Assembly: GCF_022842015.1 (NCBI RefSeq)
Contig: NZ_JALHQJ010000016.1
Location: forward strand, 1-44,472
Source: Nitrosomonas sp.
GTDB taxonomy: Bacteria > Pseudomonadota > Gammaproteobacteria > Burkholderiales > Nitrosomonadaceae
Length of the DNA: 44,472 bases
Direction: 5' to 3'
Below, in pieces: positions 12,613 through 23,476 of the stretch. The position numbers and the translations under genes are program-made. Under the pieces are notes generated by a model, which searched no databases, was not told the origin of the DNA, and worked only from the letters and a program-made list of their open reading frames with translations. Position 1 is the first letter of the stretch, and each line of letters opens with the position of its first letter.

Positions 12613-15600
12613 TTAATTTTTGACGAGTGTTTGATAGATGGCTTGAAAGCTTTGGGAGGGGTTAATACCCAAACGGGTCAACAGAGCCTGGTGGCAGCGT
12701 TGATAGATAGCCAGCGCTTCGATGCGCTGGCCCAGTTGCAAATAGACATTCATGAGACGGCAGTAGAACAGTTCTACGATAGGTTCAATCTCAATAGCTT
12801 TAAGGTAACACTCAGCTGCATTCAGCCAGTCGCCATCCTGCTCGAGCATAGCGCCATATTGCTCAATTAATCTCCGATAGTGGATACGCAGCCGGTCGCG
12901 AAAAGTTAATACCCAGGGTGAAGTATCACCCTCCAAAAAGTGGCCACGATACCAATTCAATGCACGCTGCAACGAAGCTCTATCAGTCATGTCTGGATGA
13001 TGTGCGACGCGATCAAAGGCCAGGCAATCCACCCAGATATAGCCCCGATCCAAGGATAAGTGGCGGTCTTCGAATCGAACTGCCTCAGCATGTTGCAACA
13101 GTTTGCGCAAACGATGCAGTGTAGTCCTGAGTGCTTGTTCCGCGGTACCGCTTACTGAATCAGGCCACAGTGCGTCAATTATCCGATCCTGGTTAATTGC
13201 CTGGCCTCCATAGGAACATAAACATTTTAATAATTCCAACGGCTTGTGCTGGGCTTTTCCCGAAGTGCGGAATGGGTTGCCGTCGAATGTTATTTCAAAC
13301 CGCCCGAGTGTGTAGATCTTGATTGGCCACGGCCAATTATCCGGTTCCGGCGGCTCGGCTTTGATGTTGCGTCGTCGAATCACACTTGTCACATAGGATT
13401 CCTCGATGCCGGATTTAAGAGCGAGGGAAAATAAGCGCGCCATAACTTGTGGGCGCCACCACAGATTGAGAACGATATAATCGTTCTCACGGCCAAGTTG
13501 CAGTCCTTCACTCAGCAGTGTCAAGGCTTTCGCCTCCTCTCCCTGTTTTAACCATGCATGCGCTTTTATTAACAAGCATTGATGTTCTAAAAATGTACTT
13601 TTCATCACACGACTGTACTGGATCACTTGATCAAGATGAGAATGAGCAATTTCAAATTGATTCAATTCAACCAGAATTTGCGCCAAACCAAACCGAGCTC
13701 CCTCGGTCAGAAATTGCCTTCCCATTTTTTCATGAAGATTAAACGATGTTGACGCGTCATCGAGTGCGCCCAGCAAATTTCCTTCCAGCAATTCAATGCC
13801 TGCTCGCAAGAATCGATATTCCGCTAAAGTATGTTTACCTTGTACATCCAATGTCGCTTCAACTTTCTCCAGAAAAAATTTCGCTTGGGTTAATTCACCA
13901 GCGGAAAGCGCGCTGTATACGGCATTTCCCCATTGCATACAATCCAAAATTGTAATACCCGCTTCACGCGATATATTAATACCTTCCAGAATCTTTATTT
14001 CTGCAATCTGATAAGACGCTGTAGTAGACCAGGCGTAGGCGGCCTCAATCACCCGCCAGCGGATAAGATCAAGAGGAGGCACTGTCATGGCAGTCATAAG
14101 AAGGTTGGTTTCTTCTATGATCTTCCGAGCCTTGTAAATATCACCACGCCAGAGTGGAAGCCATATGAATGCACAAGCAATTCCGAATCGCAAAAATGGA
14201 TCAATCGCAGTTTCGACTACAATTTCTGCTCGCTTCTCAAGCATTTCTAACAGCGGGTGATGGGGCGCGGCATATATCAAACCTTGCATACTGGCTAATA
14301 CCTTGGCCTCAACGTTAAGTGACGGGAAGCCGTGGTATTGAATCAAAAGATCTTTTAATTGCTCGGCCCACGTTAAGACGAGCGCCATATCATCTTCGAT
14401 TAAAACATAGGCGTCGATTATGCTGCCACAGGTCAGAAACAGTCCGACAAGGTCATTTTCACGCTGAAACATAACATATGCCTGCTCAAAATCTGCAATA
14501 GCCTCCCGAGGATTCAGCAGGACATGACTCATTCCACGCCAGTAAAGCAACCAGGATGTGGTTTGGCTTACTTCAGCGGGTAGATAATCTATCAGATTTT
14601 GTAGAGTCTGATGCCGCCCTTGGCTGAGTAGAATGGTTGCGTGCCTGATGATCATTTCGACAAGCCTTGTCCATTCTTTTATCTCTGCATATAACTCAGC
14701 GGCGACTTTGAATTTGCCATTTTGCTCGGCGAGGCTAGCAGCCATGTGCTTGATGTCGAGAAGCTCAGATCCGGAAAAATGTTTATTCGCCCGAGCCAGC
14801 AAAAATTCACGGAACAAAGTGTGGTATTGATAACTGATTTCATCACCGTTACGCAGGTCAATAAATAGCCGACGACGATAGAGAAAATCAAGCAATTCAT
14901 GGGCGCTTGTATTTCCGCTAATATCTTGCGCCATCTGAACAGTCAGGTACGGCAAAGTAGCAGTGCTCATCAGGAATCTCTGCATGTCCACAGATAATTT
15001 ATCGAAGATCTGGTTAGCAAAATAATCAAATATGGGCTCCATGGTTTCTGTCTGGAGAACATAATTGACTGTACCCGCTAGCCTGAAACGTTCCAACATC
15101 AACACTAATCCTGCTGCCCAGCCATTAGTTTGAACTTTCAACAATTGCAGTGTGTTTTCATCGAATTCCTGTGGGCTGGATGCTGTAATAATTGCCTCAA
15201 CTTCCATCGGTGTCAGGCGGAGAGCTTCCCAATCAATTTGCCCAATAAGGTTGCATGCCAGCGATCGTGCAAAATGAGGCGGAGATTCGAGGTGGCTGAT
15301 GACAATGATGTGGATGCCTTTTGGTAGTTCTGCGATAGCACCTTGAATCGCATTATGGAATGCCGATGTTGGAATCATTTCCTGATAATTGTCGAATACC
15401 AGTATGGAGATTTCAGGAATTGCAGCGAAAAGTTTGCGAAAGAAGCGACGGAAAAATTCTGACAGATCTGGCAGATATTCTGGCATTAAAAGGGGCAATG
15501 AAAGGTGCTTGCTAGTGGAAGCTTGTTGTCCGGCCAACCTCATGTAATGAAAGAATGTCGCGAGATCAGAGTCGCCACTATCAACTTGATACCAGATGGC

Positions 15601-15786
15601 TGGCAACTGACGTTCTTCAAGATAGCTTGCCACAAGCGTTGTTTTCCCTGCTCCGGGCGGCCCCTTAATCCATACAACAGGATGATCGTTACATTCTTTA
15701 TCTAACAGTATAAATAAACGATCGCGAGCAACAACTCTATAGAGATTTGGTCGGCTCAGCTTCGCAATATTAGACCATTTTGACAT
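12613..15786 (-). CDS. STAND ATPase transcriptional activator with SARP/BTAD C-terminus
   Basis: 1057 residues. A MalT-like AAA/NB-ARC ATPase begins near residue 40 (Walker A GPPGAGKTT, about 42-50; Walker B SILVFDNYQ, about 145-155). A long helical repeat region (about 370-800) probably senses a ligand or partner. The C-terminus carries a winged-helix OmpR/SARP domain (about 820-915, TLGRFEITFDG, ALWPDS, LRTTLHRLRKLL) and a BTAD tetratricopeptide domain (about 920-1057, WYRGHFLEGD, CYLKAIEIEP). It is a cytoplasmic DNA-binding activator. This order (ATPase first, SARP last) is known in proteobacterial regulators. The gene stands alone and points toward the PEP-CTERM gene. An 11-bp inverted repeat lies 47 nt upstream of the start. 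Confidence 0.9.
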   Translation of the reverse strand: MSKWSNIAKLSRPNLYRVVARDRLFILLDKECNDHPVVWIKGPPGAGKTTLVASYLEERQLPAIWYQVDSGDSDLATFFHYMRLAGQQASTSKHLSLPLLMPEYLPDLSEFFRRFFRKLFAAIPEISILVFDNYQEMIPTSAFHNAIQGAIAELPKGIHIIVISHLESPPHFARSLACNLIGQIDWEALRLTPMEVEAIITASSPQEFDENTLQLLKVQTNGWAAGLVLMLERFRLAGTVNYVLQTETMEPIFDYFANQIFDKLSVDMQRFLMSTATLPYLTVQMAQDISGNTSAHELLDFLYRRRLFIDLRNGDEISYQYHTLFREFLLARANKHFSGSELLDIKHMAASLAEQNGKFKVAAELYAEIKEWTRLVEMIIRHATILLSQGRHQTLQNLIDYLPAEVSQTTSWLLYWRGMSHVLLNPREAIADFEQAYVMFQRENDLVGLFLTCGSIIDAYVLIEDDMALVLTWAEQLKDLLIQYHGFPSLNVEAKVLASMQGLIYAAPHHPLLEMLEKRAEIVVETAIDPFLRFGIACAFIWLPLWRGDIYKARKIIEETNLLMTAMTVPPLDLIRWRVIEAAYAWSTTASYQIAEIKILEGINISREAGITILDCMQWGNAVYSALSAGELTQAKFFLEKVEATLDVQGKHTLAEYRFLRAGIELLEGNLLGALDDASTSFNLHEKMGRQFLTEGARFGLAQILVELNQFEIAHSHLDQVIQYSRVMKSTFLEHQCLLIKAHAWLKQGEEAKALTLLSEGLQLGRENDYIVLNLWWRPQVMARLFSLALKSGIEESYVTSVIRRRNIKAEPPEPDNWPWPIKIYTLGRFEITFDGNPFRTSGKAQHKPLELLKCLCSYGGQAINQDRIIDALWPDSVSGTAEQALRTTLHRLRKLLQHAEAVRFEDRHLSLDRGYIWVDCLAFDRVAHHPDMTDRASLQRALNWYRGHFLEGDTSPWVLTFRDRLRIHYRRLIEQYGAMLEQDGDWLNAAECYLKAIEIEPIVELFYCRLMNVYLQLGQRIEALAIYQRCHQALLTRLGINPSQSFQAIYQTLVKN

Positions 15787-18553: not shown

Positions 18554-18686
18554 TTCAAGTAAGTGAGAATTAGATAGATAGCTACAATATGTCGCGCAGA
18601 TAACCATCTGATTTAATTGAAATTTGATATGCTCAAATGCCGTCCTTTTAGCTAGGACTCTTTGTAACTTACGGACAATAAAAAAC

Positions 18687-19412
18687 GTGATTGAGCATCC
18701 TGATTCAAGAATACGCGTTCTGGTAGCCGAGAGCTTCGAGCTCGTTCGTTTAGGACTGCGCTCGCTGTTTGAAAACCACGCTAACATCAACTTAGTTGCA
18801 GAAACCCATAAAATACAAGACTTATTCAATCTTGCAGAACAGCATAAGCCGGACATAATCCTTATGGATCTACTCTTGAGCGGCAATGACTACGTGGAAC
18901 ATGTTGCCCAGTTACTGCGTACTTGCCCGCAAAGTAAAATACTGGCTTTTTCTAATTACAATAACGAACAAACTCATTTACGAACTTTTCGCTCAGGCGT
19001 GGCAGGGGTGATCAGAAAAAGCCATTCAACAGATCTATTAATCAAGGCCATTATTGCAATCCATAAGGGTCATCTCTGGTTTGATCGCAATATCACCAAG
19101 TTGCTCTGGCAAGCGCAATTCGATTCCGATCCAGCTGCAGAAATCAAACCGCAAACTGATGCTTCAACATCTCAACAGCCCAGATTAAGCGATAGCGAAC
19201 GTCACGTTGCCCATCTCGCATGCAAAGGTTTGTCCGCCAAGGAAATCGGCGCGCAACTGTCTGTAACAGAAAAGACCGTACGAAACCAATTATCTAGTAT
19301 CTACAGAAAAACTGGCGTCAAGAAACAAATCGAACTATGTCTCAAAGCACCCTTATATGATTATTTTAAAGAATCCTGCTTGATCGGGACATTTATCCCA
19401 AAAGATAGCTAA
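18687..19412 (+). CDS. LuxR/NarL-type orphan response regulator
   Basis: 241 residues from the GTG at 18687, which places the receiver start in the usual register; an upstream TTG at 18624 is possible but less likely. Receiver domain (about 8-125): phosphate acceptor Asp61 in IILMDLLLSG, Ser89 in place of the usual Thr, Lys111 in VIRKS. The usual acidic pair near residue 15 is reduced to one Glu (VLVAESFE). The C-terminal GerE/LuxR HTH (about 167-225) reads LSDSERHVAHLACKGLSAKE and TVRNQLSSIYRKTGVK. No histidine kinase is next to it. Its gene and the following oxidase operon have matching promoters, so it probably activates both. A reduced acidic pocket suggests altered phosphorylation. Confidence 0.88.
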   Translation: MIEHPDSRIRVLVAESFELVRLGLRSLFENHANINLVAETHKIQDLFNLAEQHKPDIILMDLLLSGNDYVEHVAQLLRTCPQSKILAFSNYNNEQTHLRTFRSGVAGVIRKSHSTDLLIKAIIAIHKGHLWFDRNITKLLWQAQFDSDPAAEIKPQTDASTSQQPRLSDSERHVAHLACKGLSAKEIGAQLSVTEKTVRNQLSSIYRKTGVKKQIELCLKAPLYDYFKESCLIGTFIPKDS

Positions 19413-19636: not shown

Positions 19637-20632
19637 ATGCTGTTTCAATCCAACCGAGCCGAGTGCGACACGAAGCTCATAAAAAATTCCAATACCTCGC
19701 CGACTATCACACAAAGATCCTTAATAAAACTGGGTGCTATGACATTCGCACTTACCCTGACGCTATCTACTTTTTCTGCAAGTTTCGCAGCCGAACATAT
19801 TATTCAACTGACCGCAGAAGAAACCCAAGACGATGGATTTGGTAACAAGTTACTGGCTTACAAAATGCTAAGCCATAAAGTTAACGGTACGGATATTACA
19901 TCACGCTATAGCGCGGAAGCCACCATTCCCGGCCCTACCATTGAGCTAACTGAAGGAGACACGGTTAAGATATCGATTCAAAATGCAATTCCTGGCAATA
20001 ATACGCCTATTCCTGGAATCAGCAGACAGGTCAGCATTCATGTGCATGGCGTACATTACGATATTCTTAGCGACGGAACCCTCAAGGTCATCAATAAAAA
20101 CTTTGACGAGGGAGCAGGTGCCGGGCTTGAAGAAACCTATGTCATCTACGAATATCAATGGAATGTTGCAGCTGGAACTGCTGGCACCTGGGCCTACCAC
20201 GATCATAATTTTGAAACCCATAATGGAGCAGAGCACAAAGGTCTTTTTGGAGCAATCATCGTCAACAAAATCGGCGCTCCAAATTTTGACAAAGATTATG
20301 TACTTTATTTAGGCGACGATGCTTTCTGGGGCATGGAAATCGACGGAGCAAGCAAAACTCAGTCAAAACATGGCACCAATCCAACATTGGCTGCAACAAA
20401 AAACTCCAATGTCAGGTTTCATCTGATTGCTTTAGGCACCGATATTCATACCTTTAAGCTAGACGGCTATAAATGGGTCGACCCCGGCACTACTAATCTT
20501 ATTAATCACATTGCAATCGGTCCGCTTGAGAAACATGTTTTCAATGTTATCGCCAAAAATAGCGCTCATTACGAAGACAACGATTTCTCCAACAAGCTAC
20601 TGGGTATGAGAGGAAAGTTTCTAGTCCGGTAA
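19637..20632 (+). CDS. Two-domain multicopper oxidase-like protein keeping only domain-1 copper ligands
   Basis: 331 residues; ATG at 19637 is set by GAGGAGG 8 nt upstream. A 35-residue N-terminal extension precedes a signal sequence (LTLSTFSASFAA), so the mature protein is periplasmic. Domain 1 (about 55-210) holds both trinuclear-site pairs: His135-Val-His137 in SIHVHGVH and His188-Asp-His190 in WAYHDHNF. Domain 2 (about 215-331) has lost its ligands: in HTFKLDGYKW His271 remains but Lys274 and Asp276 replace the two trinuclear histidines, and Glu313-Asp314-Asn315, Asn319 replace the HCH...H type-1/type-3 motif (Met324 is kept). Alone it cannot hold a type-1 copper or full trinuclear centre. 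It is followed 35 nt later by a second oxidase with the reverse pattern. The family is the small-laccase/two-domain oxidases; the substrate is unknown. Confidence 0.85.
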   Translation: MLFQSNRAECDTKLIKNSNTSPTITQRSLIKLGAMTFALTLTLSTFSASFAAEHIIQLTAEETQDDGFGNKLLAYKMLSHKVNGTDITSRYSAEATIPGPTIELTEGDTVKISIQNAIPGNNTPIPGISRQVSIHVHGVHYDILSDGTLKVINKNFDEGAGAGLEETYVIYEYQWNVAAGTAGTWAYHDHNFETHNGAEHKGLFGAIIVNKIGAPNFDKDYVLYLGDDAFWGMEIDGASKTQSKHGTNPTLAATKNSNVRFHLIALGTDIHTFKLDGYKWVDPGTTNLINHIAIGPLEKHVFNVIAKNSAHYEDNDFSNKLLGMRGKFLVR

Positions 20633-20667
20633 GCAAATGTTAGGCCCCTCAATAATAAGGATAGAAC

Positions 20668-23433
20668 ATGAAGATTAAAAATGCATTTAGTCTGAAGAAA
20701 TCAATCACTACAATTTTGTTTCTTGTAATCACACTTTTAATTTCACAATTCGCTCTGGCTGCGACGCATAACATTGCGCTTACGGCCGAAACATTACCTA
20801 ACGGACAGATAGCGTATGCACTGGCAGGAAACGAAGCAGTCATACCTGGACCAACTTTGTTCGTAAGGAAAGGTGATACAGTTAATGTGTCATTAACAAA
20901 TAACACCAGCATCAAAATTGGGTTTAGGGTGCCTGATCTTGCGCGATCAGGCTCTGGTAGGATTCAACCCGGGAAAACAAAAAATTACAAGATTAAGGCT
21001 AGCAAAACGGGCAGCTTCGTTTATCACGGTGATAGTGATGGCAAAGAACTACTGGGTCTGTTTGGCGCAATCATTGTGGATAAAGCACATGGGCCTGTCG
21101 ACAGTTATGTGAATGCAGATGGAAGCATAATTCCTGTCACATCAGCAGATATCGATAAACAATTTGTTCTATTCATGGTGGGTTCAACTTTCTGGGGAAC
21201 CGAAATCTCCGGAGATGGTATGCAACAAAAACCCCTCTGGGCGAATCCTAATCCTGGCGCCGTTGAGAACGACATTATACGCTTTCACATCTTATCGATT
21301 GGGCCTGGACATACCTTTCACTTACATGCGCATCGATGGTTAAAAACAGGTACCAGCGAAGTGATTGATACCAAATTACTCGAAGAAAAAACCGATACCC
21401 ATTCCTTTACCGTCAAAGCAGGCACCGGTGTCGGCACCGGGAGCTGGCAATATCATTGCCACTTAATTGCACATATGGAAGCCGGCATGCACGGTAGTTT
21501 CAGAGTTGACCCAATCGGCGGTGACGGGGCCAGTGAAGTCGGCGCATCACCTTATGGTCGAATTTTACTCGGGCCAAAGGATGAGCCAGGCTTGGTAACA
21601 TTCGAAATAACTGATGAACCAGCCAGTTGGTTTAGAAGCGCACGTGGAGATGCACTCGTGGGACTGGGTCTGGGTATTAAAACTAAATCATTGGAAGTTA
21701 TTGCTCCGGGTAGCAGCGTTAATTTTATCATGTCGGACACCAATGCCGTGCACACCATCAGTTCTTTGTTATGGCCTACGGGAGCGCATCATATGCCTTT
21801 CAATCAAACCGATGCTTACCGGGGAGGCGGAATCCTCAGATTAGATACGCCGGGCCTGTATGTATTTACTTGTAAGGTTCACCCCTATATGTTTGGTGCA
21901 GTGATTGTTGATGATCCTGAAACTACGCACGCGGAAGGAATACTTGGTCTTGCACTTGACTTAGGTGATAAAGCTTCGGATTTTAAAATCGATCTCGTGA
22001 CTGGAATTAAAGGATTACCCACCAATAGCGATTTAGCCATTCGGTTATTGCGAACATTCTTTGTCGCTACTGCACCAGATAACTGGCAAGACTATTCATC
22101 CGGGAGTTGGAATGTCAAATTTCCTGATCTTTCAGTCGTGATCTCGGGAGCCCCATTCAGTAAGGAATTAACCGATGGAGGCGTTGCTGCTCCTTTAAGC
22201 ATCTTGGATATCAGCGGTGAACTTCTTCCAACGCCAATTCCACCAACAGAACACGGTGTCGGTGAAGTATGGATTAATACACAGTTTGAGAAAACTGCAA
22301 GCAAATACAAACCAGGTACCATTACCGTGGTTGATGCAACTGATTGGACGGTTAAACGCAAGATTGGGCTACCTGAGATTGATATGAATAATCCACATAA
22401 TATGTGGCCTAACCGAGATCAGTCAATCATTTATCAGACCCAGTGGTTTGATAACAAATTAACCATGATCAAGCGTAAGAACGGTCAATTGATCAAAAAC
22501 ATTCGAGTGGGATATGCACCTTCTCATGTTATGACATTACCTACGAACGATGACGCAACGATTGCTATCAATGGTGAAAACAGCATTGCAGTTATTCCTG
22601 CTGGGACTACGCATGTTACCAAAATGATGCCAACACAAGGACGCGGACATACCTCTGCAAATCCTCATGGGCATTGGGTCAGTGCAGATGGATCCAGAAT
22701 CGTAACCCCCAACATCAATACGGGTGATATCGGAATTTATGCTGCCGATGGCGACATACACGCCAGAACCGTAACAGGTCAAGGTGCTCCCGGTGCACAT
22801 CCAATCGCAATCGGTATGATGCCGGATTCCAGCAAAATTTATGCAACCAACCTTCTGCACCATTCATTAAGCGTACTGAATGGCAATACCGGAGAGCTGA
22901 TCAAAACTGTTAATCTCATTGCCGATTACGACCCGATTGACGGTAGTTTTTCTGATAATGATGGGAATGGAGAAATTGCAGTCGGCGTATTACCCATCCA
23001 AACACCCGTTTCTCCCGATGGCAAAGCAGTTGTAATCGCCGCAACAGGCGGACAAATTGTTATCGTAGATACCGCTACCGATAGCATCGTTAAAATGCTC
23101 CCCTGCGATCCCGGTTGTCACGGTGCAAACTTTGGTGCCAAACAGGGTGGTGGATATTATGCCTACGTTACAAGCAAATTTTCCAATCGTCTGATCGTGG
23201 TAGATACTGATCCGAATGGCGATGGCAATCTGAGCGACGCGGCAATTGTAGGAACGATTTCTCTGGTTTCCAGAGAAGATACAGTTAGTGATGACGCGAT
23301 AAGTCATCTGCCAGGATTTGGTGGTCAGGGAGTGCTTCCGATTCCCAATGTGTACAACGGTTGGGTACAAAATCTGCCAGAAAATTGGAAAGCTGGCTTA
23401 ACTGCCGCACAAAGAAATCCGATCGGAGACTAA
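20668..23433 (+). CDS. Multicopper oxidase-cupredoxin-beta-propeller fusion keeping domain-2 copper ligands
   Basis: 921 residues, periplasmic (signal peptide about 1-31, ending FALAA). Domain 1 (about 32-140) is degenerate: GFR at 85-87 replaces the HxH and His120-Gly-Asp122 replaces the second pair. Domain 2 (about 165-282) is complete: His215, His218, His220 in HTFHLHAH and His263-Cys264-His265, His269, Met274 in HCHLIAHMEAGM, with spacing identical to small laccases. A third cupredoxin (about 305-415) has His362, Cys402, His405, Met408 (CKVHPYM, the amicyanin-type loop). The C-terminal part (about 525-900) is a YVTN/N2OR-like beta-propeller with a histidine near the start of most blades (577, 620, 669, 711, 818) and an unusual Cys813-x3-Cys817-His818. 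It follows the 19637 gene by 35 nt in one operon. Substrate unknown; a copper redox enzyme of nitrogen or metal metabolism is an inference. Confidence 0.85.
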   Translation: MKIKNAFSLKKSITTILFLVITLLISQFALAATHNIALTAETLPNGQIAYALAGNEAVIPGPTLFVRKGDTVNVSLTNNTSIKIGFRVPDLARSGSGRIQPGKTKNYKIKASKTGSFVYHGDSDGKELLGLFGAIIVDKAHGPVDSYVNADGSIIPVTSADIDKQFVLFMVGSTFWGTEISGDGMQQKPLWANPNPGAVENDIIRFHILSIGPGHTFHLHAHRWLKTGTSEVIDTKLLEEKTDTHSFTVKAGTGVGTGSWQYHCHLIAHMEAGMHGSFRVDPIGGDGASEVGASPYGRILLGPKDEPGLVTFEITDEPASWFRSARGDALVGLGLGIKTKSLEVIAPGSSVNFIMSDTNAVHTISSLLWPTGAHHMPFNQTDAYRGGGILRLDTPGLYVFTCKVHPYMFGAVIVDDPETTHAEGILGLALDLGDKASDFKIDLVTGIKGLPTNSDLAIRLLRTFFVATAPDNWQDYSSGSWNVKFPDLSVVISGAPFSKELTDGGVAAPLSILDISGELLPTPIPPTEHGVGEVWINTQFEKTASKYKPGTITVVDATDWTVKRKIGLPEIDMNNPHNMWPNRDQSIIYQTQWFDNKLTMIKRKNGQLIKNIRVGYAPSHVMTLPTNDDATIAINGENSIAVIPAGTTHVTKMMPTQGRGHTSANPHGHWVSADGSRIVTPNINTGDIGIYAADGDIHARTVTGQGAPGAHPIAIGMMPDSSKIYATNLLHHSLSVLNGNTGELIKTVNLIADYDPIDGSFSDNDGNGEIAVGVLPIQTPVSPDGKAVVIAATGGQIVIVDTATDSIVKMLPCDPGCHGANFGAKQGGGYYAYVTSKFSNRLIVVDTDPNGDGNLSDAAIVGTISLVSREDTVSDDAISHLPGFGGQGVLPIPNVYNGWVQNLPENWKAGLTAAQRNPIGD

Positions 23434-23437
23434 TATC

Positions 23438-23476
23438 AATACAGCTACCAGGATGGAACTGGTAGCTGTATTTTTT
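23438..23476 (+). terminator. Strong rho-independent terminator of the copper oxidase operon
   Basis: A 13-bp perfect stem, AATACAGCTACCA at 23438-23450 and TGGTAGCTGTATT at 23460-23472, with a 9-nt loop and a T-run. It begins 4 nt after the stop codon. Confidence 0.95.

Follow-up and report, generated by a model that had tools for sequence, protein, structure and literature searches.

The analysed window is a 44,472-nucleotide stretch of Nitrosomonas sp. (contig NZ_JALHQJ010000016.1 of assembly GCF_022842015.1), in which two adjacent genes encode cupredoxin proteins that we call A and B (Table 1). We propose, with a probability of roughly 85%, that A and B form an obligate heteromer with a shared trinuclear copper centre, each contributing half of a single periplasmic multicopper oxidase. 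Judged by its ligand pattern, the pair is a variant of the type-B two-domain oxidases: the complete trinuclear and type-1 ligand set that defines this family is found in neither A nor B, only in the pair. A sequence-only reading of the window had placed two oxidase open reading frames (ORFs) at 19637-23433, correctly, and had proposed a hetero-oligomer with a shared centre, an idea supported here by complementary ligands, second-shell residues, sequence divergence, and the pairing of 76 of 80 A genes with B.

Ligands were compared in an alignment of 69 A rows, 65 B rows (the window's own pair included, the rest named records), and 13 single-gene relatives. All four trinuclear-centre histidines of A domain 1, which the sequence-only reading had noted in the window (His135, His137, His188, and His190), are kept in 69/69 rows. 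Its further claim that domain 2 of A had lost its ligands holds at six positions, occupied in the window by Lys274, Asp276, Glu313, Asp314, Asn315, and Asn319, and across all 69 rows by His in two cells and Cys in one. The claim does not extend to His271, the first type-1 His, retained in the window and in 61/69 rows, or to the axial Met324, retained in 65/69. Domain 2 of B is intact, also as first read: each of its eight ligands (His215, His218, His220, His263, Cys264, His265, His269, and Met274) occurs in 63–64 of the 65 rows, and the type-1 copper site of oxidase domain 2 (His215, Cys264, His269, Met274) is complete in B and not in A. Domain 1 of B indeed lacks HxH at its first motif and carries His120-Gly-Asp122 at its second, although the alignment assigns the first motif to Arg87-Val-Pro89 and not, as earlier proposed, to Gly85-Phe-Arg87. 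Of the four ligand positions in this domain, only that of His120 still holds His, in 37/65 rows, and no substitute His appears at aligned sites of lost ligands beyond single rows. Given that this pattern recurs through 69 A and 65 B rows while all twelve ligands are present in 13/13 single-gene relatives, it is not a chance arrangement. The same picture was obtained from a second sample of distinct sequences, 56 of A and 52 of B, which shares organisms with the first and is not independent of it.

The surroundings of the ligands are divided in the same manner. In the two-domain laccase of S. griseoflavus, Tyr109 and Asp260 are reported among the residues affecting oxygen reduction (PMC10419308); their equivalents were set here by motif and by alignment of a related laccase. 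The Tyr, part of an HVHGxxY motif, is found in 68/69 A rows vs. 0/65 B rows, and the domain-2 Asp in 64/65 B rows (one gap) vs. 6/69 A rows. Across 48 non-ligand columns per domain, chosen as invariant among the single-gene relatives, A retains 88.0% in domain 1 and B 51.0%, while in domain 2 the values are 51.8% for A and 76.0% for B. Mean identity to the single-gene relatives follows suit: for domain 1 it is 52.9% in A against 34.5% in B, and for domain 2 it is 35.1% in A against 48.1% in B. Taken together, complementary ligands, second-shell residues, and divergence indicate that domain 1 of A and domain 2 of B constitute one site.

The two genes also travel together. Among 125 genomes of the window's own family, A was matched in 85 (weak matches counted) and B in 116, many of the latter being a paralogue of about 613 amino acids or weaker. 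In 76 of 80 strong A rows of this family, B is adjacent downstream on the same strand, 39–235 nt away, and 76 of the 77 B rows with oxidase domains have A adjacent (counts transcribed by hand). An A protein occurring alone with the same losses, the observation that the sequence-only reading had named as contrary to its proposal, was not convincingly found among these 80 rows, and none of the four exceptions was a convincing intact A without B. In one genome (G039), A and B lie on different contigs, each at an end; in another (G064, locus L117), a frame-broken A is followed by the start of B until the contig ends. A second A copy on a long contig (G051, L116) was considered as a solo A and rejected, as its domain 2 is interrupted by a stretch of N. 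At L107 and L131, the contig ends just past A. Tandem A-B pairs, two on one contig, occur in the named records L134 and L145. A scan for named loci, in which the 80 best of 98 confirmed stretches were kept, places most A genes in Nitrosomonas, Nitrosospira, and Nitrosovibrio. In 398 genomes drawn from the phylum, strong A matches were restricted to the own genome and one of the same genus, the rest being weak matches, at E 1e-12 or worse, that fell mostly within frames as long as those of three-domain enzymes; no relatives were found in viral contigs. A was also observed in metagenome-assembled genomes (MAGs) named Chromatiales, Nitrospirae, and Pseudomonadales (L129, L131, and L141), accompanied by B in L129 and L141; PF02461 was not found in these three MAGs, and both transfer and binning error are possible.

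The closest complete relatives found, among the stretches kept in the scan for named loci, are single-gene oxidases (L155-L167) of the methanotrophs Methylomicrobium, Methylotuvimicrobium, Methyloglobulus, Methylohalobius, Methylothermaceae, and Methylocystis, of three Gammaproteobacteria MAGs, and of two Nitrosopumilaceae. Unlike A and B, they hold the twelve ligands in one protein, and the propeller homologous to the C-terminus of B is a separate gene. This cupredoxin-propeller ORF follows the oxidase in 10/13 loci, two of which are cut by contig ends; it does not adjoin the Methylocystis and two archaeal loci, while a second Methylocystis copy does adjoin one. Open frames of 941–985 amino acids that resembled oxidase-propeller fusions in some methanotrophs were rejected, given that six-frame translation revealed intervening stop codons, confirmed on the DNA of L157-L160, L163, and L167 (Methylocystis not among them). 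The presence of a propeller gene next to the methanotroph oxidase suggests that the architecture of B represents those neighbours fused. The simplest history that we infer is duplication of a type-B two-domain oxidase, a small-laccase-like and normally homotrimeric ancestor, whose second copy would have fused in frame with a cupredoxin-propeller gene like that found 3' of the methanotroph single-copy oxidase, with complementary decay of both copies. In a tree of 118 rows (147 rows, one short B dropped, 146 thinned at 90% identity), A and B each formed one clade with support of 100/100. PF02461 was detected in 8/10 bacterial genomes with the single-gene enzyme, in 9/17 of all genomes searched, and in 67/125 genomes of the own family, but not in the own genome. 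Its absence from drafts is therefore weakly informative, and we claim no exclusivity to hosts of copper monooxygenases.

In the proposed enzyme, the trinuclear centre would take its domain-1 face from A and its domain-2 face from B, which would also supply the type-1 copper, so that oxygen would be reduced at the interface between A domain 1 and B domain 2. Electrons would enter via the type-1 copper of B domain 2, and probably also via that of B domain 3. This third domain and the region following it had been missed by the sequence-only reading, which was right about the oxidase domains of B and overlooked both a third, type-1 cupredoxin domain and a seven-bladed propeller. Domain 3 is pseudoazurin-like (sequence match to 2ux6, E 3.2e-4), and its four type-1 ligands are all present in 74/75 rows, the remaining row being gapped. 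Nitrous oxide reductases, L-NosZ and NosZ, have a CuA site with two Cys in their cupredoxin domain. A NosZ-type CuA site was considered for domain 3 and rejected for its one-Cys type-1 pattern, Cys402-x2-His405-x2-Met408; B scored 21.1 bits against L-NosZ (NF052460), below the curated cut-off of 700. The C-terminal region is a YVTN-type seven-bladed propeller by fold match, in which seven residues, one per blade, form a ring (Table 1). Six of them (Glu533, His577, His620, His669, Gln778, and His818) are conserved in each ungapped row of 75; His711 is found in 62/66 B rows and replaced by Ile in 8/8 methanotroph proteins. Thus 6/7 ring residues are common to the methanotroph proteins, and 7/7 to a 613-amino acid cupredoxin-propeller paralogue of the B C-terminus that we observed on another contig of the own genome (C27, L188:7720-9561; 54% identity), which has no oxidase domains.

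The propeller ring is a possible metal site. Together with the type-1 site of domain 3, which is likewise conserved, it invites the speculation that the propeller or its vicinity is where the substrate is oxidized. A fuller version of the proposal, in which the obligate heteromer would combine its sole trinuclear centre with a second type-1 copper and a metal active site at the propeller mouth (Glu533, His577, His620, His669, His711, Gln778, His818), with substrate oxidized there and electrons passing via two type-1 coppers to oxygen, is tentative, and we consider it somewhat more doubtful than probable.

Several points weigh against a shared centre or the history outlined above. The physical assembly of A and B, its copper content, and its electron path are predicted from sequence. 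In the best tree, A grouped with the methanotroph enzymes and B with those of the archaea, and a tree with A and B as sisters was not rejected (p 0.351, log-likelihood difference 0.59), so that more than one order of duplication is compatible with the data. In one MAG (G012, L132), the fourth of the exceptions to pairing, the B that adjoins A has no domain 1 and an incomplete domain 2. In the predicted A-B chain described below, the stretches flanking the first His motif of A had low predicted local distance difference test (pLDDT) values (block means 43–62, motif block 74). Lastly, a modified site made by B only is conceivable from its four domain-2 trinuclear His and its type-1 site.

That last possibility belongs to the explanation in which A and B assemble separately, each into homo-oligomers, B being remodelled to bind copper through its four domain-2 His with no domain-1 His involved, and A being copper-binding or structural via its four domain-1 His. 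Type-B two-domain oxidases are as a rule homotrimers (PMC13151041), and the residual His at the His120 position of B (37/65), together with His271 (61/69) and Met324 (65/69) of A, would fit such independent proteins. However, near-strict pairing, complementary second shells, and the lack of replacement of lost His at aligned positions beyond single rows make this explanation unlikely. We give considerably less credence to an A-B pair that is dead as an oxidase, its oxidase domains being scaffold only while the work is done by the type-1 copper of domain 3 and by the propeller. The cupredoxin-propeller unit does occur alone, both as the paralogue of about 613 amino acids in at least 48/125 family genomes and as the separate methanotroph gene; yet the ligands of A domain 1 and B domain 2 show little or no variation, in contrast to the drift in the other halves, and retention of exactly one complete ligand set is not expected of a pure scaffold. 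A heteromer in which A or B partners another complete oxidase of the cell is barely credible, given that A adjoins B in 76/80 rows and that, of the additional oxidase-like frames in the own genome (three of 573–622 amino acids, one of 381), the former have, by length alone, the size of three-domain enzymes.

The shared-centre heteromer can be placed beside known enzymes. Like A and B, the type-B small laccases 3cg8, 8aip, and 9ix9 have a two-domain cupredoxin fold and the same motif order, with domain-2 type-1 copper and the second-shell Tyr and Asp in common with the pair. Known type-B enzymes are described as homotrimers whose trinuclear centre lies between protomers of one kind (PMC13151041, PMC10419308); they differ from the pair, in which the ligand set is divided over two genes and B has two additional domains. 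When A-B was read through as a single chain, structure prediction gave a pLDDT of 81.7 and a predicted template modelling (pTM) score of 0.84. In three-domain laccases and six-domain ceruloplasmin, the trinuclear centre lies between the first and last cupredoxin domain, within one chain, unlike in the A-B pair. Foldseek matched the joined A-B chain to many fungal laccase chains with a target TM-score (TMt) of 0.50–0.56 over ~640–660 columns, and to other fungal laccase chains with about 0.40 over about 530 columns. Against ceruloplasmin, the query TM-score (TMq) was 0.29–0.30 with a root-mean-square deviation of about 22 Å, with no superposition in sequence order. Small laccase fold matches covered B alone and not the joined chain. 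This comparison of a modelled chain is compatible with contact between A domain 1 and B domain 2. The Mnx manganese oxidase complex (9bxa) also appeared among the fold matches of joined A-B. Its multicopper oxidase is active within a hetero-complex and, unlike A-B with its split set, carries the full copper set on its own chain. Another two-domain enzyme, 3G5W, which we take to be a homotrimeric type-C oxidase distinct from A and B, was absent among the 60 of 61 matches listed for A. It is the blue copper oxidase of N. europaea, of the same genus (Lawton 2009, cited in PMC3192119).

A search at title and abstract level, covering few subscription journals, returned no report of a split or heteromeric two-domain oxidase, and no study of a conserved A-B oxidase was found in coverage mostly outside subscription journals. 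If our proposal is true, the pair would be a natural record of a homotrimer with a subunit-interface active site turning into an obligate heteromer through complementary loss, one for which complete single-gene relatives survive in methanotrophs and archaea. It would bear on the evolution of three- and six-domain copper proteins and give ammonia oxidizers a further conserved oxidase in their copper biology.

Table 1. Coordinates of the A-B locus and its features within the window (T1, T2, and T3 are type-1, type-2, and type-3 copper ligands).
Feature	Position	Strand	Details
LuxR-type response regulator	18624..19412	+	directly upstream of A; 33/79 named relative loci have a similar ORF at E 1e-10 or better
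Protein A	19637..20632	+	331 amino acids; two-domain cupredoxin protein, hydrophobic N-terminal stretch
A domain 1, His135-Val-His137	20039..20047	+	T2/T3 ligands; both His in 69/69 A rows
A domain 1, His188-Asp-His190	20198..20206	+	T3 ligands; both His in 69/69 A rows
Protein B	20668..23433	+	921 amino acids; oxidase domains 1 (decayed) and 2 (intact), then a pseudoazurin-like type-1 cupredoxin domain and a seven-bladed propeller
B domain 2, His215-x2-His218-x-His220	21310..21327	+	T1, T2, T3 ligands; each in 64/65 B rows
B domain 2, His263-Cys264-His265-x3-His269-x4-Met274	21454..21489	+	T3/T1 ligands; each in 63–64/65 B rows
B third cupredoxin domain, type-1 site	21751..21891	+	His362, Cys402, His405, Met408
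B propeller ring	22264..23121	+	Glu533, His577, His620, His669, His711, Gln778, His818; one per blade, near inner-strand start (reading of predicted strands)
Intrinsic terminator 3' of B	23438..23476	+	14-bp stem then T run; -22.8 kcal/mol, z -6.56

In the window, 35 nt separate A and B, and A is probably exported, as suggested by its N-terminal stretch. The hairpin after B was absent from the listing of a consensus terminator scanner. N. europaea has an A-B pair of its own, at locus L133. In this species under phage infection, two multicopper oxidase genes were strongly induced together, with log2 changes of 6.16 and 6.14 (PMC13356812). These may be the A-B pair, and near-equal induction fits an operon of this kind. 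Elsewhere in the window, a 1057-amino acid MalT-like ATPase regulator with a BTAD domain is encoded at 12613-15786 on the minus strand and adjoins a dicarboxylate symporter gene.

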